A DNA stretch of 64,000 bases, from the NCBI GenBank assembly GCA_017983755.1, contig JAGOAU010000002.1, forward strand, positions 124,001 to 188,000, read 5' to 3'. This document shows, in pieces, positions 23,267-31,812 of this stretch; within the stretch, counting starts at the first letter, position 1, and each line of letters opens with the position of its first letter. This DNA comes from Azonexus sp. (GTDB lineage: Bacteria > Pseudomonadota > Gammaproteobacteria > Burkholderiales > Rhodocyclaceae). Position numbers and translations under genes: made by a program. The notes beneath the pieces are model-generated. The model was not told the DNA's origin. It searched no databases and saw only the letters and a list, made by a program, of their open reading frames with translations.

Positions 23267-24625
23267 TCAAGCATTGATTACCCGCAATCCTGGCTTTGCT
23301 TCTTCGCTCGGTTGTTCAATTCCAGCCTGCTCCAATATCCAGCCTTCTATCTTGGTGTGCCACATGCGCAGCAGGTCGAGGGGACGAACGCGGTAATGCT
23401 TCTCGGCTGTGGCGCTTGGCTTGTGTCCCATGATTTGAGCGACGATGCCAGCAGGAACCTCTACCCATTCGGTCAGCGTGCCAAAAGAACGGCGCAGGCC
23501 ATGCAGAGAAAGCGCAGGCAGACCAGCGGCAGTCAGGACCTTGTTGTGCGCAATGCGTGGCTCTTGCAGCCGTCCAGATGCAGCAGTGGGGCTACTGAAT
23601 ACCCAAGGATTCGGAACCTCCTTGCCATTTGCCATCATCTTGCGGCGTGGCAATTGGGCCAGCAGGGATGAGACATAGGGTGTCAGCGGTATCGTGCGCT
23701 CACCATCCACCTTGTCTCGGATAGTTAAGCCCTTCCACTGGAAATCAACATCCTCCCATTTCAGCCATGCCAACTCTTCCCGGCGTGCGCCAGTTATCAG
23801 CAGGGTTTGCAGATAGGCGGCATGTACGGGGTTAGGTAGTTTCCGAACGTGTTCAAACCACAAGGGCAACTGTTCGCGCTGCATACAGTCATCCTTGGCG
23901 GCTTTCTTTGGTAACTCATCACGAACGCTTCGGGTAGCGCAGGCATCGGCATTTACCTGTTCTTGGTAATCCTTGTGGTCAGCGCACCAATTGATGAAGG
24001 CTCGCAACAGGCGATAGGCCAGTGCAGTATTGGTCGGGCGCTTGGCAACCTCGTCACGCATCCACTGCGAAACCAAGGCAGAATCAATTTCATTCAGTGG
24101 TCGACGGAGCAGCACATGCAATGCGCCGGGTTCGGTCTTGGCGCCCTCCCCCTTCTTCCTGCCTCTGGCCTTGGGCTTTCCACCAGCATCGGCAAAGCGT
24201 TGATGGTCAGCGTAAGTGCGCTCACCCCACTTGGGACGGCGAGACTCCAGATAGGCGCTCCATGCATCTAAGGCAGGCGCTTCTTCTCGCTCAGACCTTG
24301 CCCGCTTCGCCTCGGTGGCTGCAACGCGCTCCTTCTTCTCTTGGCGCGGGTCAATTCCCTTGTCTATTAACTTCTGGAGAGTTCGGGCTTCTTCTCTGGC
24401 CTTGTCGATACCCCATGACCGAACGTCGCCGATGGTGATACGCACATCCTGTCCAGATGCCTGCTTGCCTTGAAAGATGAATGCCTTGCTGCCTTCTGGA
24501 TTGCGCTGGCCGGGGGCGGTAGCACGAACAGCCAGGCCGGGAGTGTCAGAGTCCCAGAGGAACGCCTGCCCCTTGTCGGTGGCGAAGTCCCGAATACGTC
24601 CAGCAGTCAGATTGATGCGTGCCAT
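23267..24625 (-). CDS. int: Tyrosine recombinase/integrase of the island
   Basis: 452 residues. An N-terminal DUF4102-like arm-binding domain (1-95) and a core-binding domain precede a catalytic domain with Arg281 (ITGARREEL), probable Lys305, His375-x-x-Arg378 (HGLRRS), His401 (GHKPSA) and the Tyr411 nucleophile (KHYRV). All catalytic residues are present. It lies 180 bases inside the right attachment repeat and points inward, as usual for tRNA-targeting islands. Confidence 0.96.
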   Translation of the reverse strand: MARINLTAGRIRDFATDKGQAFLWDSDTPGLAVRATAPGQRNPEGSKAFIFQGKQASGQDVRITIGDVRSWGIDKAREEARTLQKLIDKGIDPRQEKKERVAATEAKRARSEREEAPALDAWSAYLESRRPKWGERTYADHQRFADAGGKPKARGRKKGEGAKTEPGALHVLLRRPLNEIDSALVSQWMRDEVAKRPTNTALAYRLLRAFINWCADHKDYQEQVNADACATRSVRDELPKKAAKDDCMQREQLPLWFEHVRKLPNPVHAAYLQTLLITGARREELAWLKWEDVDFQWKGLTIRDKVDGERTIPLTPYVSSLLAQLPRRKMMANGKEVPNPWVFSSPTAASGRLQEPRIAHNKVLTAAGLPALSLHGLRRSFGTLTEWVEVPAGIVAQIMGHKPSATAEKHYRVRPLDLLRMWHTKIEGWILEQAGIEQPSEEAKPGLRVINA

Positions 24626-24805: not shown

Positions 24806-24857
24806 GACTCTTAATCCGTAGGTCGACAGTTCGAATCTGTCGCGCCCCACCAGAATA
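24806..24857. repeat. attR: right copy of 52-bp repeat, tRNA-Lys 3' fragment
   Basis: Exact copy of 700-751: anticodon loop, variable region, T-arm, acceptor 3' strand, ACCA and AGAATA. No 5' tRNA half precedes it, so it is a non-functional remnant that marks the right island end. It is probably the original 3' end displaced by integration. Confidence 0.93.
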
Positions 24858-25082: not shown

Positions 25083-26420
25083 ATGAAGACTCGACACGTA
25101 CTAGCGATTGATCCGCAAGGTCATCTCAGTAGCCAGCCATTGCAGATTACGGCTGAAGACCAGGCCCTGCATTGCGTCGAGTCCGTGGCGGCTGCAAAAA
25201 AGATCCTTGCCAGAAACCACTGTAGCGTTGGATTGGTTGTGTTCGACTCGTTTTCGCCGGAATTCCAGGACGAGATCGAGAAATTGATTGCAGCCACCCC
25301 GACGGCAGAATGGATCGGTATCGTCACACCGGAATCACTTGCGGCGAAATCGTTCCAGGCGTTCATATTGAATGCCTTTCACGACTACCATACCCTCCCC
25401 ATCGAGCCGAAGCGGCTGGCAATGAGCATTGGCCATGCTTGTGGCAGGGCAAGGTTGCGGCTTGCCTTGACCAACCCGGGCGATGCCTCAGGGCGCTTTG
25501 GAATCTGCGGTACCAGCCCGGTCATGACGAGTTTTTTTCGCCAGCTGGAGAAGGTAATCGACGCTGATCTTCCAGTTCTAGTTTGCGGCGAGTCGGGTAC
25601 CGGCAAGGAACTGGTGGCAAGGGCAATTCACGACCATTCGGCGCGTTCCGAAAAACCCTTTGTCGTTGTGAATTGTGGCGCCATACCAACCAATCTGATC
25701 CAGACCGAGTTGTTCGGACATGAACAGGGTGCATTTACCGGCGCGGTAAAAGCCAAGGTCGGGAGCATCGAAGCCGCGAATGGCGGGGTGCTGTTTCTTG
25801 ACGAAATTGGTGACCTGCCAAAGGATCTGCAGGGAAACCTGTTACGGGTTCTCCAAGAGCGAAAAATTACGCGTCTTGGCTCAACCCAGGCAATTTCGGT
25901 CGATTTCAGGCTGGTTGCGGCAACCCACGTAGACTTGCAGGACGCCATCAGTGCCGGGCACTTCCGCGAAGACCTGTATTACCGTCTCAATGTCATCCAG
26001 TTGCAGTTGCCCCCATTGCGAAAGCGCGGCAGTGACATCTGCCTTCTGGCAGAAACGATTCTCCGGAACTTCACGTCAATCACCCCAAAATGCCGCGTTG
26101 TCGGGTTCACAACCGAAGCCATGCGGGCGTTGAGCGCTTACCATTGGCCGGGCAATGTCCGCGAACTGATCAACCGGATTCATTCTGGCGTGATCATGAG
26201 CGACAGCAAACTGCTCACGGCCAGCGACCTTGGTTTTGAAGCCTTTGCCCTGGAACCCCAAACCGTCACCCTGGAGGCTGCGCGAGCCTCGTTTGAAAGG
26301 GACATTCTCGAAACGAGTCTGCGCGCCAACGGCAACAACGTATCGAAGACGGCTCGTCAACTTGGCATTTCTCGCATCACCCTGTACCGGGCGATCAGCA
26401 AGTTCAACATTGAACTGTAA
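25083..26420 (+). CDS. Sigma-54-dependent activator, VpsR-like
   Basis: 445 residues from ATG 25083 with GGAGG upstream. A degenerate receiver-like domain (1-125) has Asp55 in place but only one N-terminal acidic residue, and the usual Lys of the TKP motif is Leu (TLPIEP), so classical phosphorylation is doubtful. The AAA+ domain is complete: Walker A GESGTGKE (169-176), GAFTGA (216-221, contacts sigma-54) and LFLDEI (237-242). A Fis-type helix-turn-helix ends the protein. It resembles VpsR, a c-di-GMP-responsive matrix regulator. The only strong sigma-54 promoter seen here is 440 bases downstream, before the Gly-rich gene. Confidence 0.9.
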   Translation: MKTRHVLAIDPQGHLSSQPLQITAEDQALHCVESVAAAKKILARNHCSVGLVVFDSFSPEFQDEIEKLIAATPTAEWIGIVTPESLAAKSFQAFILNAFHDYHTLPIEPKRLAMSIGHACGRARLRLALTNPGDASGRFGICGTSPVMTSFFRQLEKVIDADLPVLVCGESGTGKELVARAIHDHSARSEKPFVVVNCGAIPTNLIQTELFGHEQGAFTGAVKAKVGSIEAANGGVLFLDEIGDLPKDLQGNLLRVLQERKITRLGSTQAISVDFRLVAATHVDLQDAISAGHFREDLYYRLNVIQLQLPPLRKRGSDICLLAETILRNFTSITPKCRVVGFTTEAMRALSAYHWPGNVRELINRIHSGVIMSDSKLLTASDLGFEAFALEPQTVTLEAARASFERDILETSLRANGNNVSKTARQLGISRITLYRAISKFNIEL

Positions 26421-26641
26421 GCTCCCACGCTTCGCCGTCGAACGAAAGTTGCACACCGGCAATTATTCCTGACCTTGCTTGTCGATCCACCGCCCCGGGA
26501 AGCGGGCGGATATCCATCCCCATGGTTACGCGTCAATAAGCATAGCGGCCTACCTGCTGCTGTTTGAGTAGATCCGGCAACCCCGCCGTGACCGGCAATG
26601 GAATAACTCCCTGGATTGGCTGGAACGTCCGATCAATTCGC

Positions 26642-26659
26642 TGTATCAATTTCGATACA
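26642..26659. promoter_or_regulatory. Candidate enhancer site for the sigma-54 activator
   Basis: A perfect 6-bp inverted repeat TGTATC-AATTTC-GATACA, centred about 215 bases upstream of the -24 element. Distance and symmetry suit an upstream activator site, but only one copy is obvious. Confidence 0.4.
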
Positions 26660-26856
26660 TGCGTCTTGAGCGAGAAAAACCCATTTGCTTTCATGACATG
26701 TGCGATCAAAAAACGCCTTCTGCAGAACAATGCATGGATATCTCGCTGGGCAGGTGTTTCAGATTAGGTACACATGCTGCAGCGCGCAAGCATGAGGCCG
26801 TTCTAAGAAAAAATATTATTTAATATATTCAAATAGTTATAGATAAAAATAGCCAA

Positions 26857-26873
26857 TGGCATAGGCATTGCTT
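26857..26873 (+). promoter_or_regulatory. Sigma-54 (-24/-12) promoter of the Gly-rich protein operon
   Basis: TGGCATAGGCATTGC: GG (26858-26859) and GC (26870-26871) are separated by exactly 10 bases, as required, with TGGCA and TTGC around them. The transcript would begin near 26883, giving a leader of about 60 bases before the ATG at 26942 and its GGAGG site. Confidence 0.85.
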
Positions 26874-26941
26874 AGATGACGAGCGGAGGGCACAGCACAA
26901 CGCTGTGGCCACTTCGAATAATCTTGATTGGAGGATTTACC

Positions 26942-28294
26942 ATGAACAAGACTCTTCTGGCAGTGGCCCTTGCGTTAGCCTACAGTGCAGCGCCGGCATG
27001 GGCAGAGCAACAGCAACAACATAATGGGGGCCCATCCGATCCGAATGTCACCATTACCGACAACAGCAATAACAGCGACAACAGCAACAACAGCGACAAC
27101 AGCAGCAAGTCAGGGAATTTCAACAACAAGGGTGATTCAGGCGCACTTGGACTAGGAAGCACCGCAGCCAACAATGGCGCCTCTGCAACCTCCAACTTCT
27201 CGAATGCATTCAACACCAGCAAGGCGATTGCCAAGGTCGAACTCAACGGCAACGTCTCCGGCAACCGTGTAAGTGACATTGGCAACGTCGTCAAGAACTA
27301 CGGTGATGCCAACGGTGCAACCGGCGGCAAAGGCTACGGCGGCGCCGGCGGCACCGGCAACGGCGGCACCGGCGGCAATGGCGGCAATGCAGCTGCCGCC
27401 GCTGCTGCCGGGGATGGCGGCAGCGCCTTCAATGGCAGCGCAACGGCTGGCAAGGCTAGCAATGGCAATGCCACCAATGGCAGCGCAGGCGCTGGTGGAG
27501 CAGCTCTGGGTGCGATAAGTGCCAGTCTCAACGCCAACAAGGCCAAGAGCGGCGACAGCGGTCAACTGGGCGTAGGCCTGGGCGGCAGCACTCTCGGCGG
27601 CAGCGCCGGCGTTGGCGGGTCGGCAGGTGCAATCGATGCAACCAAGGGTGGTTCTGCCGGCTCGCTCGGCGCCGGGCTCGGTGGTATCGCCGGATCGGAC
27701 CAAGACAAGGCCAAGGGTCTGTTCGGCGGCAATCAGACGGCAACCAATAACGGCGGCGCCGGTAGCGCCAATTCGGGCGCCACGGGCGGCGGCACCGGCA
27801 GCACCTCCGCGAGTGCTGGGGGTGGCGCTGGCACGGGTGGTGGCGTAAACGGCACCGGCGGCAACGGTAGCGGTTCGGGTAGTTCCTACTCCGGCACGGC
27901 GTCGGCAAGTGGTGGCAGCAGTGGCACGGCCACCAACACTGCCGGCAACGGTGGACAAAATGGGTCGGCGACCAATGGCGGCGCTTCCACTCAAGCTTCC
28001 AACGGTAGCGCCACCGCTGGCGACGGTGGCGCCGGTGGTGCTGCGGCCCAAGCCGGTGGTGCCGGTGGAACTGGGCAAGGTGGCACCGGCAACGGCGGCC
28101 AAGGTGGCACCGGCGGTGTCGGCGGCGCTGGCGGCACGATTGTTCTCGACGCGGGCACCTTCAACATGTCCAACAGCATGAGCAGCGTCGGCCAGTCTGC
28201 CGCCGGCATCATGGTGGCAGCCCAAAACAGCGGCATGAACGCGCTGGTTCAACAAGCAGTCAATGTGCAGGCCAACCTGAACGTCGGCAAGTAA
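26942..28294 (+). CDS. Secreted Gly/Asn-rich protein, putative matrix or amyloid subunit
   Basis: 450 residues from ATG 26942 (GGAGG upstream). Signal peptide 1-21 (cleavage AWA-EQ); Asn/Ser/Asp repeat SDNSNN (about 40-56); a unique region (60-125, NGNVSGNRVSDIGNVVKNYGD); a Gly/Ala/Asn/Thr-rich region (about 127-397, runs of GGxG, GTGG, GNGG) like mycobacterial PGRS; and a conserved-looking C-terminus (398-450) with QNSGMNALVQQAVNVQANL. It is probably exported and polymerised by the peptidase, FapE-like and FapF-like proteins nearby. It is not similar in sequence to canonical FapC. Confidence 0.82.
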   Translation: MNKTLLAVALALAYSAAPAWAEQQQQHNGGPSDPNVTITDNSNNSDNSNNSDNSSKSGNFNNKGDSGALGLGSTAANNGASATSNFSNAFNTSKAIAKVELNGNVSGNRVSDIGNVVKNYGDANGATGGKGYGGAGGTGNGGTGGNGGNAAAAAAAGDGGSAFNGSATAGKASNGNATNGSAGAGGAALGAISASLNANKAKSGDSGQLGVGLGGSTLGGSAGVGGSAGAIDATKGGSAGSLGAGLGGIAGSDQDKAKGLFGGNQTATNNGGAGSANSGATGGGTGSTSASAGGGAGTGGGVNGTGGNGSGSGSSYSGTASASGGSSGTATNTAGNGGQNGSATNGGASTQASNGSATAGDGGAGGAAAQAGGAGGTGQGGTGNGGQGGTGGVGGAGGTIVLDAGTFNMSNSMSSVGQSAAGIMVAAQNSGMNALVQQAVNVQANLNVGK

Positions 28295-28304
28295 GTAGGA
28301 GTGG

Positions 28305-28334
28305 ATCCTGGGGTCATCCGGCCCCAGGATTTCT
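28305..28334 (+). terminator. Hairpin between the Gly-rich gene and downstream genes
   Basis: A 9-bp stem ATCCTGGGG (28305-28313)/CCCCAGGAT (28322-28330) followed by TTTCTT. It starts 10 bases after the stop codon. The imperfect T-tract suggests partial termination, which would lower expression of the processing genes relative to the abundant subunit, or an mRNA 3'-end stabiliser. Confidence 0.65.
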
Positions 28335-28361
28335 TGCCTTATTTGATAAAGGGGAAGAGAC

Positions 28362-28730
28362 GTGAAAGCAATTGCGCATTCCCGTTGGTTGATTGTCATG
28401 ATGCTGCTTGGCAGCGCCTACCTACCCCTTCAGGTCAGTGCCGAAACAACTGACCAGCAGGGCGAAGTACGTGCTGGCGAATTGTTTGGCAGCGTTGCGG
28501 TCGACAGCCTGGATCTTGCCATTTCCCGTGGTGGCACGGAGGTCACTCTCAATGATCTCAAAAACAATGGCGTAGTGAGCGACAATCATGCAAGCAACCT
28601 GGTAACTGGCAGCAACTGGGTCACGGAAGGTTCATTTGCCGGGGCGACCGGCTTTGCGACCGTGGTGCAGAATTCCGGCAACAACGTATTGATCCAGAAC
28701 GCGACCATCGTTAACTTGCAGGTTAAATGA
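28362..28730 (+). CDS. Small secreted protein, putative minor subunit or chaperone of the Fap-like system
   Basis: 122 residues from GTG 28362 with GGGGAAG upstream. Signal peptide about 1-27 (ending LQVSA). The mature protein is polar, with a C-terminal segment FATVVQNSGNNVLIQNATIVNLQV that shares the QNSGxNxLxQ pattern with the end of the Gly-rich protein. It overlaps the peptidase start (ATGA). It may correspond to FapA or FapB in position and size, but direct homology cannot be claimed. Confidence 0.72.
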   Translation: MKAIAHSRWLIVMMLLGSAYLPLQVSAETTDQQGEVRAGELFGSVAVDSLDLAISRGGTEVTLNDLKNNGVVSDNHASNLVTGSNWVTEGSFAGATGFATVVQNSGNNVLIQNATIVNLQVK

Positions 28731-29428
28731 TGCTCTCCGCAACGGTTCGGGCGCTCTTCATGCTTCCCCTGCTGGCTTGCACCGTGGGTGCTTTGGCCAG
28801 CCCCGGGGGAAGAGCTGAGATACCCGTTCAATCCGGCGGCGCATTTTCTGTTCCGGTCTACAGCATGAAGGAACAGCGTTTCCAGAAGACAATCCATCAA
28901 CAATACGATTTCAGTTGCGGTTCGGCCGCGCTGGCCACCTTGCTGACCCACCATTACAATTTTCCGGTTACCGAACAAGACGTGTTCCGCGAAATGTTCA
29001 CCCGCGGTGATCAGGCGAAAATAAAGAAGGAAGGCTTTTCCTTACTGGACATCAAGAACTATCTTACGACCCGCGGCTTCGATGCGGACGGGTATGTAGC
29101 CGAGATCGACAAACTCGCCATCGCCGGTGTGCCGGCGATTGTCCTAGTAAAGGAGCAGGGCTATTACCATTTCGTGGTTGTCAAGGGACTGCGGGATGGC
29201 CGGGTTCTGATTGGCGACCCATCTTCAGGCACCCGGGTGATTCCGAAAACCCAATTCACGGAAATGTGGGTCAACAAGATTCTGTTCGTAATCAAGAACA
29301 AGCTGGAAATAGCCCGGTTCAATAACGATTACGATTGGCAGGCCGCGCCCATGAGTCCCATCGCGGCGGGCCATCATCGCGGCACCACTGATTACGGCCT
29401 GGCCAAACGTGGGCCGGCGGATTTCTGA
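28727..29428 (+). CDS. Exported C39-family cysteine peptidase, FapD-like
   Basis: 233 residues. Signal peptide about 1-24. The C39 fold shows Gln58 or 59 (oxyanion) and nucleophile Cys64 in YDFSCGSAALATLL, His148 in YYHFVVVKG and Asp164 in LIGDPSSG. FapD of the Pseudomonas amyloid operon is a peptidase of this class, and the FSCGSAA block looks the same. There is no ABC-transporter domain, so it is not a bacteriocin exporter. Its position between subunit-like genes and a FapE-like gene mirrors fap operons. Confidence 0.88.
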   Translation: MMLSATVRALFMLPLLACTVGALASPGGRAEIPVQSGGAFSVPVYSMKEQRFQKTIHQQYDFSCGSAALATLLTHHYNFPVTEQDVFREMFTRGDQAKIKKEGFSLLDIKNYLTTRGFDADGYVAEIDKLAIAGVPAIVLVKEQGYYHFVVVKGLRDGRVLIGDPSSGTRVIPKTQFTEMWVNKILFVIKNKLEIARFNNDYDWQAAPMSPIAAGHHRGTTDYGLAKRGPADF

Positions 29429-29439
29429 CGGAGACCGCG

Positions 29440-30372
29440 ATGAGATTCCGTCAGAGTCTTTCGAGATTGTTGCTTGCATGTGCATGTGGGGCAGGCGTAT
29501 CCGCACAGATGTTGGGAGATAACCTCGAGCCTCCACTTTTCGGGCATTTCACGCCCTTATTCGACCACGTCATCAGGGCGGCGCTCGCAGATGCGGATGA
29601 AGACGAAACGCTTATGAGCGACGCCGAAAAATCGCTCCTGGCGCTCGCTGGAAAAAGCCGTCTGACATGCGATGCAGCAAAGCGCCGCGCACTCGAGATC
29701 GCTCCTGAACTCCTGTCACTCGCCGATTGGCCACTGGATGACCACGAGCCGGTTGAGTGCTTGAACAAACAACATGGATCAGTGGCGGTACTTTACGAAG
29801 CATTGAAAGAGATTATCGAAATTGCCACCCCTGCGCCCGTTGTCACGGTCACGGCGACGATATCCGGCGAGGAGACTCCTGCCGCGAAGAAACCCTCGCC
29901 TCGGGCCGTGGTGGTGGAGCGTCAACAGCATTATCCATTCGATCAGCAACTGGTTGCGTTGGACACGGACTCGCTGGATGAAATCCGGGGCGGCTTTGAA
30001 CTTCAAGGAAGCGGGCTGAAGTTCTCGATCGGTATCGAGCGGGCAGTATTCATTAATGGCAACCTGGTTGCCAGTACCGTGCTTGTCCCCAAGGATCTTC
30101 AACAGGCCACTGGTGGTGGTAGCGTCGCGAGCGCGCAACCCGTTGGCACCACGGGCGCCTTGGGTATCATTCAAACAGGAACCGGCAACAACATAAGCAC
30201 TCAGCAGATCAGCCCGAATCTGGCTGGAACAGTCATTCAGAACACCCTCAACGACCAGAAGATTCAGAGTGTCACGACCATCAACGCAAGCGTCAACAGC
30301 TTGCAGACATTGCGCACAATGTCTGTCCATAACACCATCCAGACGGGCATCATTGGTTCATTGCGCCGCTGA
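29440..30372 (+). CDS. FapE-like secreted protein
   Basis: 310 residues. Signal peptide (ending VSA-Q, residue 22). The first half is helical with two Cys (LTCDAAKRR, VECLNKQ). The second half holds DEIRGGFELQGSGLKFSIG, IERAVFINGNLVAST and a C-terminal IQTGTGNNIS...VIQNTLNDQKI...TINASVNSL, a pattern I associate with FapE-type proteins (RGGF, ERAxxxNGxLV, IQNxLN). Follows the peptidase by 11 bases. Probably a component or accessory of the exported fibre. Confidence 0.75.
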   Translation: MRFRQSLSRLLLACACGAGVSAQMLGDNLEPPLFGHFTPLFDHVIRAALADADEDETLMSDAEKSLLALAGKSRLTCDAAKRRALEIAPELLSLADWPLDDHEPVECLNKQHGSVAVLYEALKEIIEIATPAPVVTVTATISGEETPAAKKPSPRAVVVERQQHYPFDQQLVALDTDSLDEIRGGFELQGSGLKFSIGIERAVFINGNLVASTVLVPKDLQQATGGGSVASAQPVGTTGALGIIQTGTGNNISTQQISPNLAGTVIQNTLNDQKIQSVTTINASVNSLQTLRTMSVHNTIQTGIIGSLRR

Positions 30373-30406
30373 CGACGTCGCATGAAAATTCTGCTGCGGT
30401 GAAAAG

Positions 30407-30431
30407 AAAACGGGCCTTAAAGGCCCGTTTT
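30407..30431. terminator. Bidirectional intrinsic terminator
   Basis: A 10-bp stem AAAACGGGCC/GGCCCGTTTT with loop TTAAA, flanked by A-tract and T-tract. It lies between convergent genes (FapE-like, ends 30372; FapF-like, ends 30460) and can serve both. Confidence 0.92.
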
Positions 30432-30459
30432 ATATACCAGGTAAAGGTAATCCGTGATG

Positions 30460-31812
30460 TCAGAATGACATCGGCAGACGCAGCCCCAACGTGACATCCG
30501 GCGTATCACGGGTGACACCGACGCCGACGGTAAGGCCTAGCGACGTCGCATTAGTCAGACGCTGGGAGTATCCAAGCAGCAGCGTTCCGAGTTGTATGCG
30601 CGAAGCATTGATCGCATCCTGCCCGTTAATCTTCGTCTTGCCTACCGATGCACCATCATAGCCAAGGCTGAACGATGAGCGTTCATTGAGCGCCAGGCCC
30701 ATCCCGAAATTGAATCCAATCACGTCGCCCGGATCCACTTCACCCAGATTCACATCTCCTCGGGTTGTATTCATCGTGACATTGGAGCGCGCAAAGTTGT
30801 ACTGATAATTCAGACCACCAAAAAACACCGCCGGGTCGGTCGGATAAAGCATGGTTATGCCTGGCTGCAAGGTATAAAAACCCGATCCTGTCGGCAATTC
30901 TGTCTCGATCCGGTTGGTGATCAACTCCGGCGCCTCGGTGGTGTCGGTCAATACCTCGAACGGATCCTTGCCGGTGCGACTCTTGAAGCGGAGGCTGCCA
31001 ATATATACCGGCTTATCAACTGAAGTCTCGTTGAACTGGTAACGTGCCGTTGCCTCGACGTCGCCCAGCCCTTGGCCCGTGCTGTTGTAGAGATCATCGC
31101 GGCCGGCGCCCAGATTGAGCGGACGAGTCAGTTGATCGTCCGAACGATAAACATAGGGCACCTTGGCTTCAAGTTCCATGCGGTTGGTCACGCCCCAGCG
31201 ACCAGTCACGTTGCCGGTGAACGTATTGCGCCGAACTTCACGGACGTCGATCAGACCGATCGTCAAAGCTGGAATGATGGTGTAGCCGACGATGGATACC
31301 CGATTGCTGGATGAGTATGCGTACTGAACCCCCGTCTCGAACGAGAACTGACCTTTAGGCGTGAGCACCCCCGGCTGTTCGAAGATCTGCGCAACTTGCT
31401 GTACTCGCTGCGGTGGGCTTTCGCCGACTTGGGCAGGCTCTTGCGAGACAGTGCCGCTCCTGGGAGCGGGCGCTGCCGGAGCGGGCGCTGCCGGAGCGAC
31501 CGGAGCCGCTTGCGCCACCTGCATAGGCTGAGCATCCTTGCTCTTTGCCTGTGCGGCCACTGCAACAGCAGGCTGTGGCGGCACAGCAACACCCATGGAT
31601 TTCTGCATAGCGAGCAACTTGGCATCTGCGTCCGCTAACTGTTTGCGCAGGGTTTCCATTCGCTTGGCCTGCTCATTGAGTTGCGCTTTCAGCGCCTTGG
31701 CCTGGGCGGGCGAAATCTCAGCACCTTGTGCAAAACCGCTGAAAATTATCGCCAGGACACCAACGACGCTGCTGCCGCGCAGTGGAACATGTAATTGTCG
31801 AGCCATTCGCAT
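30460..31812 (-). CDS. FapF-like outer-membrane beta-barrel with N-terminal coiled coil
   Basis: 450 residues; Met at 31806 is an alternative start. A signal peptide (to about 30, GFAQGA) is followed by a heptad coiled coil (about 35-72, LKAQLNEQAKRMETLRKQL), an Ala/Pro-rich linker (75-120) and a beta-barrel (about 150-450) ending in Phe (GLRLPMSF), the outer-membrane insertion signal. FapF has the same order: trimeric coiled-coil plug, linker, barrel. It would export the Gly-rich protein. Unusually, it is encoded convergently and not as the last gene of the operon. Confidence 0.82.
   Translation of the reverse strand: MRMARQLHVPLRGSSVVGVLAIIFSGFAQGAEISPAQAKALKAQLNEQAKRMETLRKQLADADAKLLAMQKSMGVAVPPQPAVAVAAQAKSKDAQPMQVAQAAPVAPAAPAPAAPAPRSGTVSQEPAQVGESPPQRVQQVAQIFEQPGVLTPKGQFSFETGVQYAYSSSNRVSIVGYTIIPALTIGLIDVREVRRNTFTGNVTGRWGVTNRMELEAKVPYVYRSDDQLTRPLNLGAGRDDLYNSTGQGLGDVEATARYQFNETSVDKPVYIGSLRFKSRTGKDPFEVLTDTTEAPELITNRIETELPTGSGFYTLQPGITMLYPTDPAVFFGGLNYQYNFARSNVTMNTTRGDVNLGEVDPGDVIGFNFGMGLALNERSSFSLGYDGASVGKTKINGQDAINASRIQLGTLLLGYSQRLTNATSLGLTVGVGVTRDTPDVTLGLRLPMSF

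Follow-up and report, generated by a model that had tools for sequence, protein, structure and literature searches.

Within a 64,000-nucleotide stretch of an Azonexus sp. genome (contig JAGOAU010000002.1, positions 124,001 to 188,000; hereafter the window), a cluster of six genes probably encodes a secretion system of the functional-amyloid (Fap) type, a sister of canonical Fap, with a polymer of the cell surface or matrix, based on a glycine-rich protein, as its export product. The six reading frames were confirmed at the coordinates of an earlier reading of this DNA (the original prediction), and every gene it had described was found by reading frames and family matches. A sigma-54-dependent activator (REG), the glycine-rich protein (GLY), a small secreted protein (SML), a cysteine peptidase of the C39 family and a FapE-like protein are encoded on the forward strand, and the gene of the outer-membrane barrel (BAR) is convergent to that of the FapE-like protein (Table 1). 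The SML and peptidase genes share a 4-base overlap, and the FapE-like gene starts 11 bases downstream of the peptidase gene. The host genome comprises 43 contigs (2.5 Mb, 74% complete).

Table 1. Features of the Fap-type cluster (window coordinates)
Feature	Position	Strand	Remarks
GLY, secreted Gly-rich protein, proposed major subunit	26942-28294	+	450 aa, 26.9% Gly; signal-peptide-like N-terminus by inspection
C-terminal QNSG motif of GLY, residues 400-450	28139..28291	+	related to SML C-terminus
SML, small secreted protein, proposed minor subunit	28362-28730	+	in 63/80 loci; C-terminus QNSGNNVLIQN
L52-x3-R-G-G58 in SML, candidate site of C39 cleavage behind Gly58	28515..28535	+	conserved columns
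C39, FapD-like periplasmic cysteine peptidase	28727-29428	+	Pfam PF03412, E 8.8e-23
FapE-like secreted protein	29440-30372	+	in 65/80 loci
L179-x3-R-G-G185 of FapE-like protein, proposed C39 site before Phe186	29974..29994	+	[LM]...RGG[FY] motif
BAR, FapF-type outer-membrane barrel, N-terminal coiled-coil helix	30460-31812	-	NCBIfam FapF match
REG, sigma-54-dependent activator, VpsR-type N-terminal domain	25083-26420	+	Pfam Sigma54_activat E 1.4e-70, VpsR E 1.3e-13
Sigma-54 (-24/-12) promoter-like site	26857..26873	+	TGGCAT-N5-TTGC, 85 bases 5' of GLY start
Short inverted repeat	30410..30429		between the convergent FapE-like and barrel genes; read directly in the sequence

The Fap-type nature of the export machinery was supported by the barrel and the peptidase. 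The NCBIfam FapF model matched residues 39-450 of the barrel on positions 20-420 of 420 (E = 1.5e-52; 179 bits, below the equivalog cut-off of 700). The barrel ends in phenylalanine, as had been noted, and so do 58 of its 80 homologues; the coiled coil that had been described together with it is predicted as one helix (residues 35-72) in front of a FapF-type barrel. For the peptidase, FapD was the best NCBIfam model (E = 7.4e-39; 133 bits, below the equivalog cut-off of 330, as was the top FapD match among 229 class-level genomes). Its proposed catalytic residues Cys64, His148 and Asp164 were invariant in all 14 aligned relatives, and the solved chain closest to the profile of these 14 sequences was 6mpz, 'Double Glycine Motif Protease' (E = 2e-13).

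Conservation of the gene set was followed in 80 loci, the best of 299 barrel relatives from a scan of named genomes, and this set is therefore biased toward the kind found in the window. Orthologue labels were given to best profile matches, leaving out activators below 250 bits. GLY was called in 62 loci, SML in 63, the peptidase in 64, and the FapE-like protein and the activator in 65 each. GLY, SML, peptidase and FapE-like gene were all present in 48 of the 49 loci with more than 6 kb on either side of the barrel, so the set exceeds chance. The exception was a locus with GLY uncalled (L051; L and G handles denote loci and genomes), and in L036, taken as coming from the same genome, the similarity to GLY was split over two frames. 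A sample of 300 genomes of the order gave a fairer test: SML occurred in 24 of them, and in all 24 the barrel model matched within 4 kb of it, although G084 had no more than a 77-bit fragment containing a stop. Conversely, of 25 places where the barrel scored 280 bits or more, 23 had SML within 4 kb, the exceptions being G402 and the second barrel of G342. Among these 24 genomes the major protein was read in those with a region around one of the stronger FapD matches. The genes which the original prediction had grouped are thus conserved together. Among the genera of the 80 loci were Dechloromonas, Azonexus, Accumulibacter sp. 66-26, Propionivibrio, Rhodoferax, Polaromonas, Azoarcus, Aromatoleum, Variovorax, Massilia, Janthinobacterium, Azohydromonas, Pandoraea and Frateuria. 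At E 1e-3 the NCBIfam FapD model matched 30 of 100 relatives; its weaker matches often lay in frames of more than 700 residues, as in peptidase-containing ABC transporters. Only 8 of 60 genomes of the genus, the host included, had a FapD match above 100 bits, which makes the system patchy within the genus; regions around the stronger matches contained the set both within the genus and in further families of the order. No relative of the barrel was found on viral contigs.

A motif common to SML and the FapE-like protein, L-x-x-x-R-G-G, of which the original prediction makes no mention, suggests where the peptidase of this system would cut. It was found in 56 of 63 SML (0.3 in shuffled sequences) and in 62 of 65 FapE-like proteins (1.0 in shuffles); among other members of the cluster it occurred in 1/64 peptidases, 3/65 activators and 0/66 GLY. 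When methionine was allowed at position -7 from the predicted cut, all 65 FapE-like proteins carried [LM]...RGG[FY], and R183, G184, G185 and F186 were invariant in 40 of 40. An alignment anchored on the site had mostly Val or Leu at -12, Leu at -7, Arg at -3 and Gly at -2 and -1, followed by Phe in 64 of the 65 FapE-like proteins. Seven SML were without R-G-G, one having S-G-G and six R-G-R, R-G-K (three), R-G-A or T-G-K at this place. The stretch in front of the site is variable in FapE-like proteins and conservation begins at the site; in SML, 62-67 residues follow it. The predicted fold of SML was mostly unstructured (mean pLDDT 61, pTM 0.20), with a short helix (49-55) directly before R-G-G. 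The motif agrees with the double-glycine leader consensus XXXLSXXELXXIXGG, as given in the part of PMC12724294 available to us, at -12, -7, -2 and -1, and in FapE-like proteins also at -4.

A similar site was seen in canonical FapE. The set consisted of sequences from ten genomes and one Aeromonas caviae record, none from Pseudomonas, and 11 of 11 carried [LM]-x-x-x-R-G-[K/R]-[Y/F] in their N-terminal part, preceded by Leu at -12 (9 of 11), Asp at -10 (7) and Glu at -8 (7). In our reading of the alignment this would be the same leader with Lys or Arg for the second Gly. A relation to FapE, already proposed in the original prediction, is suggested by gene position and leader motif; matched against ten canonical FapE, the Gly-type profile did not reach E 1e-3. 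According to the available sections of PMC5557850, the active-site Cys38 of FapD is required for secretion of FapC, peptides from roughly the N-terminal 70 residues of FapE were not seen, and FapE is regarded as a possible FapD substrate on account of its GG and GA motifs; the target is called unclear, and Fap proteins are said to lack canonical C39 sequences. The target is likewise called undetermined in the accessible part of PMC6173800, and a double-glycine motif in FapF is noted in that of PMC5135000. The sister system shows a plain double-glycine-type motif in two proteins, and the alignment gives an exact candidate site in canonical FapE. Judged by titles and abstract starts, none of the open-licence papers listed dealt with a mapped FapD site or a glycine-rich Fap-type cargo.

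The major protein varies widely, a point likewise absent from the original prediction. In the 80 loci the GLY family comprised 62 open reading frames of more than 300 aa, with lengths of 315-1105 aa and 19-37% Gly. No Pfam match was obtained at E 1 for GLY or SML, and curlin was likewise without a match at E 1 in GLY and SML of the window or in six major proteins of other loci. GGX triplets numbered 33 in GLY, compared to 23.7 in shuffles (the top of 500 shuffles being 33), which resembles mycobacterial PGRS proteins in composition only. The QNSG motif was recognized by a looser pattern in 57 of 62 GLY, and the profiles of GLY and SML matched each other in some loci (e.g., L174, L175 and L179). 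In other loci the same machinery adjoins majors rich in Asn/Asp/Ser and similar at the C-terminus (L172-L174), a Gln/Asn-rich protein of four repeats, the unit of which is similar to the QNSG motif (L169, L170), or a short protein without filler (L171). One exporter family may serve cargo of very different composition. That GLY is both cargo and main polymer, as the original prediction had it, we infer from linkage and the common C-terminal motif. Candidate glycine-rich surface proteins are named for Dechloromonas, an Accumulibacter-labelled genome, Propionivibrio, Polaromonas, Variovorax, Massilia and Cupriavidus metallidurans CH34. Three loci (L080, L097 and L128) have two GLY-type genes each.

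Regulation of the cluster was approached through REG, of which homologues of at least 250 bits lie in 65 of the 80 loci. The TGGCAT-N5-TTGC-type pattern had two matches in the window, the second (27473, reverse strand) inside GLY. A similar -24/-12 pattern preceded GLY in 18 of 56 loci, compared to 1 of 331 regions upstream of the other five genes. As the site before GLY goes together with a sigma-54 activator in the cluster, the sequences point to direct control by REG from this promoter. The VpsR-type domain of REG may place the cluster under cyclic di-GMP control.

We propose that REG would turn on gly-sml-c39-fapE from the -24/-12 promoter, and that the products would reach the periplasm by Sec and remain largely unfolded. 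There the C39 peptidase may cut double-glycine-type leaders off the FapE-like protein and SML after L-x-x-x-R-G-G, and this processing would license export via the FapF-type coiled-coil barrel. SML would be a minor or nucleating subunit and GLY the major one, with the QNSG motif of both as a probable assembly or export signal and the glycine-rich centre of GLY as an interchangeable filler that might set the properties of the polymer. Gene content, its conservation, the families of barrel and peptidase and the motifs of site and promoter were observed directly; cleavage, the order of events, the export of GLY and its matrix role are inferred.

Several observations weigh against this proposal. 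L...RGG is not confined to exported proteins, as 12 of 80 barrels also have it (shuffled sequences, 2.7), in the linker that follows the coiled coil. Pfam ComC, the double-glycine leader family, matched 1 of 40 FapE-like proteins (E = 0.13, overlapping the site) and 0 of 50 SML, most SML have no hydrophobic residue at position -4, and the N-terminal processing of Pseudomonas FapE is not mapped to a residue in the available part of PMC5557850. GLY itself is without the site, so cleavage does not directly explain its export. The strict promoter pattern was not present in 38 of 56 loci, and canonical Fap repeats were not detected, a profile of 31 repeats giving at best E 0.26 in GLY, SML and FapE-like proteins. 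L-x-x-x-R-G-G might instead be a docking or folding motif, with the peptidase acting as a chaperone or cutting elsewhere; the barrel linkers would fit this, as would the chaperone activity of some C39 proteins (PMC6173800, in the part available). However, the catalytic residues of the peptidase are invariant, the active-site cysteine of FapD is needed for FapC secretion, and the motif follows the leader consensus at the positions named above, which makes a docking motif rather unlikely.

The locus could also be an ordinary Fap locus, making Fap amyloid with GLY as a divergent FapC and SML as a divergent FapB. Barrel, peptidase, type of regulator and kinds of genes are alike; the QNSG motif showed a weak in-register likeness to canonical Fap repeats (hhalign probability 30%), and two majors with four tandem copies of the motif recall the repeats of FapC. 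In the reverse search of the QNSG profile against 20 sequences, two canonical FapB matched (166B, 7.5e-6; 161B, 7.3e-4) with high bias, a hint of kinship on which we do not rely. Against this stand the failure of the canonical repeat profile and the peptidase tree, in which nine canonical Fap rows formed one clade (99/97) and 42 SML-type rows the other side (92/95, not starred). Moreover, genome G111 carries both a canonical Fap and an SML-type system, about 89 kb apart, and we consider an ordinary Fap locus unlikely. Somewhat less probable still is that GLY, as an independent adhesin or slime protein, has only the promoter in common with the other genes, and that SML and the FapE-like protein are the sole exported subunits. 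The absence of the leader motif from GLY and its great variation in size and composition would agree with this; however, GLY stands beside SML in 62 of the 63 SML-bearing loci, and the C-terminal motifs of the two are related. Very improbable, finally, is that the barrel serves uptake as a porin of the COG4313 (phenol-degradation) type among unrelated neighbours, as it is nearer to FapF by sequence and by predicted fold.

The peptidase tree held 33 Gly-type loci, hand-picked from the 64 with a peptidase, and left out L162 and L178, which had no match to the core pattern; the Gly-rich rows fell on one side of a weakly supported branch (48/11). Twelve columns differed between the two clades, and none of them was interpretable alone as a specificity switch. 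In one genome, G145, the FapD model had seven matches, all to frames 218-236 residues long, which shows that C39 peptidases of the free-standing kind can occur in multiple copies.

Extended to the FapD/FapF superfamily, a two-step exporter seems to us about evenly balanced between true and false: a periplasmic C39 peptidase would cut leaders of the bacteriocin type, with R-G-G in the present branch and R-G-[K/R] followed by Tyr/Phe in canonical FapE, to license export, with FapE as the conserved substrate of FapD and the small subunit as the second one in this branch, which would move interchangeable low-complexity polymers (Gly-rich, Asn/Asp-rich, Gln/Asn four-repeat). If this is true, Burkholderiales would make widespread use of glycine-rich matrix polymers as a biofilm material that has gone unrecognised.

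With Fap of Pseudomonas (fapABCDEF) the system has in common a FapF-type coiled-coil barrel, a C39 peptidase of the FapD kind in the periplasm, small secreted subunits and, by place and leader motif, a putative FapE counterpart. Ten canonical Fap loci (L034, L159-L167) were assigned by similarity to FapB, FapC or FapE, and a sigma-54 activator homologue adjoins nine of them, one of the nine cut by a contig end. In the window, however, the major protein is glycine-rich without detected Fap repeats, SML stands in place of FapB, the FapE-like protein has R-G-G instead of R-G-[K/R], and the peptidase lies on the other side of the tree. No FapA was found by similarity, nor does any of the six genes obviously encode one; absence of FapA is described as frequent, and FapD and FapF as members of larger families (PMC3792158, in the part available). 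Pairs of fapD and fapF are reported from five further phyla in the accessible part of PMC6173800; these likewise join a C39 peptidase to a neighbouring FapF-type barrel, no cargo or site being described there. What is added here to the printed pairs is the apparent cargo, the regulator and the leader motif for one branch. Peptidase and barrel also belong to the same superfamilies as FilB and FilC (NCBIfam names) of the Acinetobacter Fil system (E = 4.5e-36 and 2.3e-23), but with 125 of 475 and 83 of 630 bits they stay far below these cut-offs and also below the FapD and FapF scores. Double-glycine-leader exporters, which are peptidase-containing ABC transporters, share the C39 family and the leader consensus, whereas the peptidase described here stands alone, carries a Sec-type signal peptide and has no ABC domain.

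Seven 14-kb regions were read from a plasmid collection. The full Gly-rich set was present on the megaplasmid of Cupriavidus metallidurans CH34, the Aeromonas region was canonical Fap, related sets without a Gly-rich major occurred in Vibrio, Photobacterium, Croceicoccus and Polymorphobacter, and the Indioceanicola region held the barrel only. In annotated plasmids peptidase and barrel are called 'C39 family peptidase', 'transporter' or hypothetical. The set without a Gly-rich major on the plasmid of Vibrio sp. SCSIO 43009 (L180) lies near terminase and recombinase genes, and its peptidase is spread across two overlapping frames.

Further barrel copies without a called SML, GLY or peptidase nearby were seen in L096 and at G342:C1:2010905-2011900, and elsewhere in the host genome a frame of 489 residues weakly matches positions 8-86 of the FapF model (G000:C1:112063-112293, E = 4.1e-5). 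In one canonical Fap locus, FapE and FapF are separated by a gene for a PAS-GGDEF diguanylate cyclase (L034:9963-10889). Clusters of close relatives hold extra genes that are not in the window (L043:6982-8544, L045:4710-6467 and L045:6567-7532); they encode proteins of 520 and 585 aa without a significant Pfam match and, in L045, an M48-type peptidase. The inverted repeat of Table 1 is possibly a terminator common to the FapE-like and barrel genes. Upstream of the cluster lies a 24-kb integrated element (700-24857) bounded by exact direct repeats of 52 bp (700-751 and 24806-24857), the left of which overlaps the 3' end of a tRNA-Lys gene (671-746); it carries a tyrosine integrase (23267-24625, reverse strand), and the Fap-type cluster begins 225 bases beyond its right end.

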